Assembly (NCBI GenBank): GCA_025058515.1
Contig: JANXDW010000005.1
Coordinates: forward strand, 1 to 54,457
Source: Aigarchaeota archaeon
GTDB lineage: Archaea > Thermoproteota > Nitrososphaeria_A > Caldarchaeales > Wolframiiraptoraceae
Direction: 5' to 3'
DNA: 54,457 nucleotides
Shown here one piece after another: positions 5,790 through 7,339 of this stretch (within the stretch, counting starts at the first letter, position 1; each line of letters opens with the position of its first letter). Below the pieces are notes generated by a model that ran no database searches, had not been told where the DNA came from, and saw only the letters and a program-made list of their open reading frames with translations. The position numbers and the translations under genes are program-made.

Positions 5790-5801
5790 TTATGTTCTCA
5801 C

Positions 5802-5822
5802 AAGTTTTATTCAATAAAACTT
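5802..5822. promoter_or_regulatory. 9-3-9 palindrome, putative DtxR/MntR-type operator
   Basis: AAGTTTTAT at 5802-5810 and its exact reverse complement ATAAAACTT at 5814-5822 are separated by TCA. The 21-bp size is typical of DtxR/MntR-family operators. It starts 12 bases upstream of the metal-binding-protein ATG (minus strand) and lies between a TATA-like TTTAAATAAAA (minus strand, about 5822-5833) and the expected transcription start. The operon it would control encodes a DtxR-type regulator. Binding is inferred, not shown. Confidence 0.6.
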
Positions 5823-5965: not shown

Positions 5966-7339
5966 ATGAGCCATCCATATTTAGGGTTAACTCAGGAAGA
6001 GATCAATTCGATGTTAATGGAGATGGGAATAGAGAAGATAGAAGAACTCTACAGAGATATTCCATCTAAATTCTTCTTGAAGAGACCACTTCAATACTCT
6101 CAACCGATGAGTGAAGAAGAAGTAAGACAACATATAAAGAAAATTCTATCAAAGAATAAGGTAGCTAATCAGATTAAATTATTTATAGGTGGTGGAGCTT
6201 GGTTTCATCTCATACCATCTGCTGTTAAAGAGATAGTTAGAAGAAGCGAGTTCCTAACATCTTATACCCCCTACCAACCTGAGGTTTCACAAGGTATGCT
6301 TCAAGCTCTTTTTGAATATCAAAGTCTTATGGCTGAGCTTCTAGATATAGAAGTCGTTAATTCTTCCATGTACGATTGGGCTACCGCTCTAGGAGAAGCA
6401 TTTAGAATGGTTAGCAGAGTTACCAAACGATCCAAGATACTTTATCCTCAATATATTTCTCCTGAAAGATTAAAAGTTGCAGAAACCTATACTGAGCCAA
6501 CGAATATAATGATGGTCGAGTATATTCAGAATAGGATTGACGGTTCAGTGGATCTTGAAGACTTGAAGAAAAAGATAGATCAAGATACTGCGGCTGTCTA
6601 TATAGAGTATCCATCCTATCTAGGATTTATTCCTCTTAATATTCGTGAAGTTGGAGAGATAGCACACGATCATAAAGCGTTATTCATAATAGGTGTAGAT
6701 CCTACTGCACTAGGAGTATTTGAGTCACCTGGAAAACTTGGTGCAGACATAGTAGTGGGAGAAGGTCAGCCTCTAGGAATGCCTGTAAATTTTGGAGGAC
6801 CACTCTTAGGAATTATGGGATGTAGAATGGAAAGAGAGTTAGTCCATCAGCTTCCAGGTAGGCTTATCGGGATGACGGTCACCCATAAAGGAGAGAGAGC
6901 ATATACAATGATCTTACAAGCTAGAGAGCAGCATATAAAGAGGGAAAAGGCAACTAGTAATATCTGCACTAACCAAGCTCTATGCGCTCTTACAGCTGCG
7001 GTATATCTTTCTCTACTAGGAAAGAATGGTATACGGATCTTAGGAGAACAGATACTGGCTAGAACCAAGTACTTGATAAGTAGGCTGTCAAAGATCGTGG
7101 AAGTTGAAGCTCCACTCTTTAAGTCTATCCACTTTAAAGAGTTTACATATAGAGTTGTTAATAAACAATCTAGAGAAGTATTAAGAAGATTGTTCGAGAA
7201 GAATATTGTAGGAGGTATCAGTATAGATGGAATGTTTAGAGATGTTGGTGACGCGATCTTAACATGCGTTACAGAGATACATTCAAAAGAAGATCTAGAC
7301 TATTATGTAGATTCTCTAAAAGAGGTTGTAGAGAGATGA
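5966..7339 (+). CDS. gcvPA: glycine dehydrogenase (decarboxylating) subunit 1
   Basis: A 457-residue N-terminal half of the split glycine cleavage P-protein, a PLP-dependent decarboxylase that transfers the aminomethyl group of glycine to lipoyl-GcvH. The start MSHPYLGLTQEEINSMLMEMG and the internal FIGGGAWFHLIPSAVKEIVRRSEFLTSYTPYQPEVSQGMLQ-type block (split here: FIGGGAWFH, then SYTPYQPEVSQG) are diagnostic. ATG 5966 is preceded by AAGGGTG; a frame opening at 5873 adds 31 residues without family support. It overlaps gcvPB by ATGA, so translation is coupled. Transcription is divergent from the metal transporter operon across a 176-base gap. Confidence 0.95.
   Translation: MSHPYLGLTQEEINSMLMEMGIEKIEELYRDIPSKFFLKRPLQYSQPMSEEEVRQHIKKILSKNKVANQIKLFIGGGAWFHLIPSAVKEIVRRSEFLTSYTPYQPEVSQGMLQALFEYQSLMAELLDIEVVNSSMYDWATALGEAFRMVSRVTKRSKILYPQYISPERLKVAETYTEPTNIMMVEYIQNRIDGSVDLEDLKKKIDQDTAAVYIEYPSYLGFIPLNIREVGEIAHDHKALFIIGVDPTALGVFESPGKLGADIVVGEGQPLGMPVNFGGPLLGIMGCRMERELVHQLPGRLIGMTVTHKGERAYTMILQAREQHIKREKATSNICTNQALCALTAAVYLSLLGKNGIRILGEQILARTKYLISRLSKIVEVEAPLFKSIHFKEFTYRVVNKQSREVLRRLFEKNIVGGISIDGMFRDVGDAILTCVTEIHSKEDLDYYVDSLKEVVER

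Follow-up and report, generated by a model that had tools for sequence, protein, structure and literature searches.

A palindrome kept before a metal-import operon of thermophilic archaea is a probable operator for the DtxR-type regulator encoded in that operon

The window analyzed here, a 54,457-nt stretch of an Aigarchaeota contig, carries on its minus strand four overlapping genes that form an operon: a ZnuA-like binding protein, an ATPase, a permease and a DtxR-type regulator, which we call REG (Table 1). All three profiles of a ZnuA/TroA-type importer (PF01297, PF00950 and PF00005) score above their cut-offs, and the importer gene set is thus complete in one operon. The assignment of the last gene to the DtxR/MntR family, made earlier in a sequence-only reading of this DNA, was confirmed by two profiles, PF01325 (43.3 bits, cut-off 26) and PF02742 (42.6 bits, cut-off 27). 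In front of the operon lies an exact palindrome, the 21-mer AAGTTTTATTCAATAAAACTT at 5802-5822. A TATA-like element recognized by eye lies directly upstream of it and the operon start codon 12 nt downstream, which places the 21-mer between the TATA box and the expected transcription start, as had been proposed. The spacing between TATA and start codon suits an archaeal promoter; with the usual archaeal spacing and a start near 5801, the 21-mer would cover approximately positions -21 to -1.

Table 1. Features of the metal operon and its upstream region (window coordinates)
Feature	Position	Strand	Evidence and remarks
Candidate operator AAGTTTTATT-C-AATAAAACTT	5802..5822	.	Exact palindrome, unique in genome, core kept in relatives
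TATA-like TTTAAATA, promoter of metal operon	5831-5824	minus	By eye; abuts site upstream
ZnuA/TroA-type metal-binding protein, operon gene 1	5789-4728	minus	PF01297, 83.1 bits
ABC transporter ATPase	4750-3983	minus	PF00005, 100.5 bits
ABC-3 family metal permease	3999-3184	minus	PF00950, 59.7 bits
REG, DtxR-type without SH3 domain, last operon gene	3200-2748	minus	PF01325, PF02742

On the opposite side of the site, gcvPA begins with a conserved start (MSHPYLGLT) at 5966, and its possible TATA element, again read by eye, is about 90 bp from the 21-mer. The suggestion that the site could also touch gcvPA control found no support: at a threshold of E 1e-6, gcvPA was matched in none of the stretches (5-16 kb each) of 12 relatives, while the site is kept there.

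The arms of the palindrome are 10 nt long and flank one central base (10-1-10). Thus, the exact inverted repeat described in the sequence-only reading stands, whereas its 9-3-9 geometry undercounts the arms by one pair. The core GTTTTAY-NNN-RTAAAAC sits at 5804-5820, and since this 7-3-7 core is the part kept perfectly across relatives, the 9-3-9 description is nevertheless close to the functional form. First-order Markov copies of the window (n=100) give an expectation of 0.10 palindromes of the 10-1-10 type and 0.42 of the 9-3-9 type per 54-kb window; in 176 bp at intergenic composition the expectation is 0.0004 for 10-1-10 and 0.007 for any gap of 1-8. Taken alone, the palindrome is weak, suggestive evidence; its conservation between genomes exceeds chance.

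We sought REG homologues in 101 genomes. A close REG is present in 13 genomes of the family including this one, with 43-60 % identity in the other 12. All 12 relatives combine the ATPase, permease and REG genes with DHH and Pcc1, which lie beyond REG, and the binding-protein gene was matched in the stretches of 10 of them. The pattern AAGTTTTAY-NNN-RTAAAACTT precedes the binding-protein gene, with 0-2 mismatches, in every readable locus of a first set (11/11; 10 relatives and the window). It was fixed at this point and then applied to seven further readable REG-bearing loci (G014, G006, L086, L087, L088, L155 and L156), all of which contain it at no more than 3 mismatches. In two of these, G014 and G006, the binding-protein gene is on a separate contig with the site before it, exact in the former and with 3 mismatches and a perfect core in the latter. 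The remaining five are outside the family and have the operon, REG and a site with 1-3 mismatches and a perfect core; L086, L087 and L088 come from MAGs labelled Thermoproteales or Desulfurococcales archaeon. The five represent three lineages, because L087/L088 and L155/L156 are near-identical pairs.

Overall, all 18 readable REG-bearing loci have a perfect core, a count in which the loci are related and so are not 18 independent cases, and for which the core consensus was derived from the same sequences. L153 and L086 (G287) are one stretch and were counted once. Two loci lie outside the 18: L154 (G291) has REG, but its contig ends before the binding-protein gene, and G020, a small contig of a 76 % complete genome, has the site and a partial binding protein with no REG found. 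When each promoter was compared with 300 Markov copies of itself, no copy matched the pattern as well in 14 of the 15 site-bearing rows. The exception was L086 (6 mismatches), where the tblastn start falls inside the site and the core is present on re-reading. Columns of the site carry 1.48 bits each and the flanks about 0.2, in rows that were selected by the core and include G020. The distance from the site to the start codon is 27-35 nt in most relatives and 11-24 nt in the five outer loci; start codons are ambiguous in L157 (2 or 29 nt), L041 (11 or 29 nt) and L042 (11 or 29 nt). In most relatives the right arm of the site runs into the BRE/TATA region, promoter elements being read by eye. 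In one genome the operon is preceded by two cores, 27 bp from each other, that flank the likely TATA (L032, G004:C38:114970-115013).

To how many places in a genome the motif belongs was addressed by searching the exact core in 22 genomes: nine with REG, five of the family without REG and eight others. The core is confined to the metal operon in all nine REG-bearing genomes, which were searched whole (in G004 both copies are there), and is absent from all five family genomes without REG. Three of the eight others (G023, G026 and G029; no close REG) have single cores, located inside stop-to-stop frames. Four REG-bearing family genomes outside the core search (G014, G016, G018 and G021) were searched for the 21-mer only. 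One extra 21-mer hit with 2 mismatches was seen in each of G016, G018 and G001; such hits mean little because control patterns give similar numbers in many genomes. A motif common at random sites, which the sequence-only reading had named as the observation that would speak against it, is not what we found: the 21-mer occurs once in the 1.47-Mb genome, even allowing 3 mismatches, and the core is operon-only in 9/9. The scan proposed there for the motif before other metal genes revealed no second target among the nine REG-bearing genomes searched for the core. With the core only at the metal operon in these nine genomes, REG looks like a putative one-operon repressor.

The reverse case is provided by two genomes of genus g5 (G008 and G011; 88 and 80 % completeness), which have retained the three transporter genes at the corresponding position with REG absent; the distance from permease to Pcc1 is now 9-11 bp. 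Their operon stretches have no site at up to 4 mismatches, the best matches in the 200 bp upstream of the operons having 5 and 6, and REG has no match at E 1e-5 in either genome. Elsewhere in these genomes, a search at 3 mismatches gives 3 and 2 hits, respectively (4 and 0 for control patterns), none with a full core. A tree of the ATPase and permease (n=19) nests g5 within the REG-bearing group, as the sister of g2 (support 1.0). Because the genomes with neither site nor REG branch inside this group, the pattern reads as a loss of site and REG together in one event, seen in two genomes. In the same tree L086 (G287), from another family, groups with G006 at support 0.90, which may reflect either transfer of the operon with REG and operator or weak tree resolution.

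More distant DtxR-type proteins, at about 30 % identity to REG, also adjoin ABC genes. Of 15 genomes with such regulators, ten have a different palindrome, AATTTAGG-N5-CCTAAATT, at no more than 2 mismatches; it lies before the operons at L018, L020, L022, L024, L026-L029, L163 and L168, and is doubled, with copies 16-17 bp apart, in eight of the ten. The GTTTTAY core was found in none of the 15 at 1 mismatch (for ten of them in 3-kb stretches only), and five of the 15 operons have neither palindrome at the cut-offs used. The recognition helix of these distant regulators reads SCATASE in the seven of the ten genomes with the other palindrome in which it was read. The corresponding helix of REG is K[SP]T[AV]SLM in 13/13 family proteins and in L086-L088, and KPTVTLM in L155 and L156. 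A different helix paired with a different operator favours REG as the binder of the GTTTTAY site. In six genomes of g4 the operon is a divergent one, no site was found in the stretches at 4 mismatches, and in all five that were translated their own DtxR-like gene precedes the binding protein. These g4 genes (L114-L117 and L119), directly before the divergent operon copy, are of a third DtxR-like kind, ending in CCH, not CPCG.

The structure model of REG (pLDDT 87.7) has a DtxR fold: the best 50 matches listed are all DtxR-family chains (Z 11.8-18.5), and the best among those listed is 2x4h (Z 18.5, rmsd 1.6, 129 aligned, 27 % identity). IdeR and DtxR follow at about Z 14-15. REG falls short of the MntR equivalog cut-offs of NCBIfam, its best score being 39.4 bits, under the cut-off of 138. 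By sequence alignment to the primary metal site of DtxR/IdeR (Met10, Cys102, Glu105 and His106), REG has W103 for Cys102, and its E106 and N107 are not conserved in the family; an acidic residue (E/D13) is kept at the first position of the site. Thus, the primary metal site of classical DtxR proteins appears to be mostly unconserved in REG. At the positions of the ancillary site (His79, Glu83, His98 and SH3 residues), REG keeps H81 and E85 and has Cys99 near the His98 position; it has no SH3 domain. All 13 family REG proteins carry H81, E85 and C99, as do the six outer sequences that were read. CPCG (127-130) and a C-terminal Cys are also found in 13/13 family proteins; outer REG proteins carry CPLG, CPHG or CCHD in place of CPCG, so C129 is not universal.

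A second DtxR-type protein, L184 (G000:C14:13916-14689), has a FeoA-like C-terminus and adjoins a FeoB-like gene, as judged by eye; it is probably the iron regulator of this genome, and a likelier one than REG. In the binding protein encoded by the operon, H76, H102, H147 and D260 are invariant (19/19 aligned). Among the ligands by which Zn and Mn importers are told apart, H76 and H147 match the first two, and Thr occupies the position of the third His in 2ov1. These binding proteins, without the usual third His and with the extra invariant H102 (19/19), possibly have an unusual metal site.

Several known systems resemble the one described here. DtxR and IdeR share its fold family, a palindromic operator at the promoter and uptake genes as target (PMC10317159). 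The IdeR box TTAGGTTAGSCTAACCTAA consists of CCTAA repeats arranged as a palindrome of 19 bp (PMC10317159), whereas the 21-mer has no CCTAA/TTAGG repeat and is built on its own core. REG also differs from these regulators in the missing SH3 domain, in a primary metal site that is mostly not conserved and in having a single target operon where these have a regulon. DR2539 of Deinococcus, an MntR-type protein, controls a metal importer and requires an inverted repeat at the promoter (PMC3327659). REG is similar to it in having a metal-importer operon, a promoter inverted repeat and the fold (Z 17.3). The acidic residue 13 of REG is at the position of MntR D8; unlike MntR, REG has Trp for the Glu/Cys ligand, Asn for His at the next ligand, invariant Cys residues and a different operator. 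SSO2273 of Sulfolobus solfataricus (2x4h), for which we know of no function, has the His, Glu and Cys99 positions in common with REG and carries CPHG, whereas its Sulfolobales-like relatives are not beside this operon and lack the core in the stretches examined. Leyn and Rodionov reportedly described archaeal DtxR regulons by comparative genomics in 2015 (doi 10.1128/JB.02386-14), which, judged from the title, is the same kind of inference. In a search of the open-licence literature, which did not extend to the main archaeal DtxR regulon paper, neither the GTTTTAY motif nor this clade was named; either may already be in print. Geocrenenecus has been placed within Wolframiiraptoraceae, and the words "dtxr" and "zinc" do not occur in the main text of that paper (PMC9246946).

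Because site and REG accompany each other in related archaea and one branch lacks both, the 21-mer is very probably a docking site for the operon's own metal-sensing repressor. Co-occurrence in 18/18 loci and joint absence in two genomes also support the main claim of the sequence-only reading, and we consider it likely, with good confidence, that 5802-5822 is the operator of REG and that metal-loaded REG shuts its own importer operon. From these comparisons we infer REG as the binder, repression as the outcome and metal as the co-repressor. When the cell has enough of the transported metal, metal-loaded REG dimers would bind the GTTTTAY-NNN-RTAAAAC core and, in this genome, occupy the stretch from the TATA box to the transcription start, blocking promoter assembly or polymerase. 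When metal is scarce, REG would be released, and the importer and REG itself would be made. Since REG would be made from its own operon, this would amount to a self-limiting loop for a single operon. The placements of the site in this genome, in the relatives and in the outer five would all suit a repressor.

Other explanations fit the data less well. If REG bound the site and activated the operon, it would resemble those archaeal activators whose binding sites directly precede the BRE; in most relatives the palindrome lies on the likely BRE/TATA or immediately upstream of it, 27-35 nt from the start codon. Such activation is improbable, given that no more than 11-24 nt separate site and start codon in this genome and the five outer loci, that here the site is downstream of TATA and over the start region, and that the second core in G004 is 27 bp further downstream; moreover, uptake regulators of the DtxR type chiefly repress with metal (PMC10317159). 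Binding by another regulator instead of REG, such as the Feo-linked DtxR-type protein that this genome encodes on contig C14, is also improbable: other REG-bearing family genomes have the site and no match to a second DtxR protein, the site disappears together with REG, and the core is restricted to the metal operon.

That the palindrome is a basal promoter element, RNA hairpin or terminator is very unlikely. Its right arm is BRE-like and continues into TATA-like sequence in most relatives, but the palindrome is single-copy per genome, g5 keeps the operon without it, and its shifting placement relative to the promoter argues against its being the basal promoter itself. As an RNA hairpin it folds weakly (-4.6 kcal/mol, z -1.47, 13/200 shuffles equally good) and was rejected, and no terminator-like site was found. 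A chance palindrome in AT-rich DNA, for which the numbers expected per window (0.10 for 10-1-10 or 0.42 for 9-3-9) leave some room, has a negligible probability and is refuted in practice by the site being kept in 18/18 readable REG-bearing loci.

Returning to REG as the cognate repressor, we favour zinc over manganese or iron as its metal because of the REG ligand set, the separate Feo-linked DtxR protein and the residues of the binding protein; Zn(II) is a best guess. Tentatively, and with rather less than even confidence, we propose that REG may be a DtxR-fold Zn(II) sensor that has a remodelled ancillary site (H81, E85, C99, and in the family C127, C129 and the C-terminal Cys), has mostly given up the primary site and reads its own GTTTTAY-NNN-RTAAAAC code at one operon. 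It would then be a small, dedicated zinc switch that has moved and been lost among thermophilic archaeal lineages together with its operator.

Wolframiiraptor gerlachensis has been brought into culture (PMC9246946), and G016 carries the operon, REG and site; with a cultivated relative that has all three, the prediction may be testable in cells. The analysis pairs a regulator with a predicted site in little-studied thermophilic archaea as an exact, one-target prediction, and it is this exactness and testability that make the REG-operator pair valuable. The altered metal site and operator, set beside the other helix and palindrome of the sister group, would offer a clean comparison of how the metal and DNA specificity of DtxR-type regulators changes.
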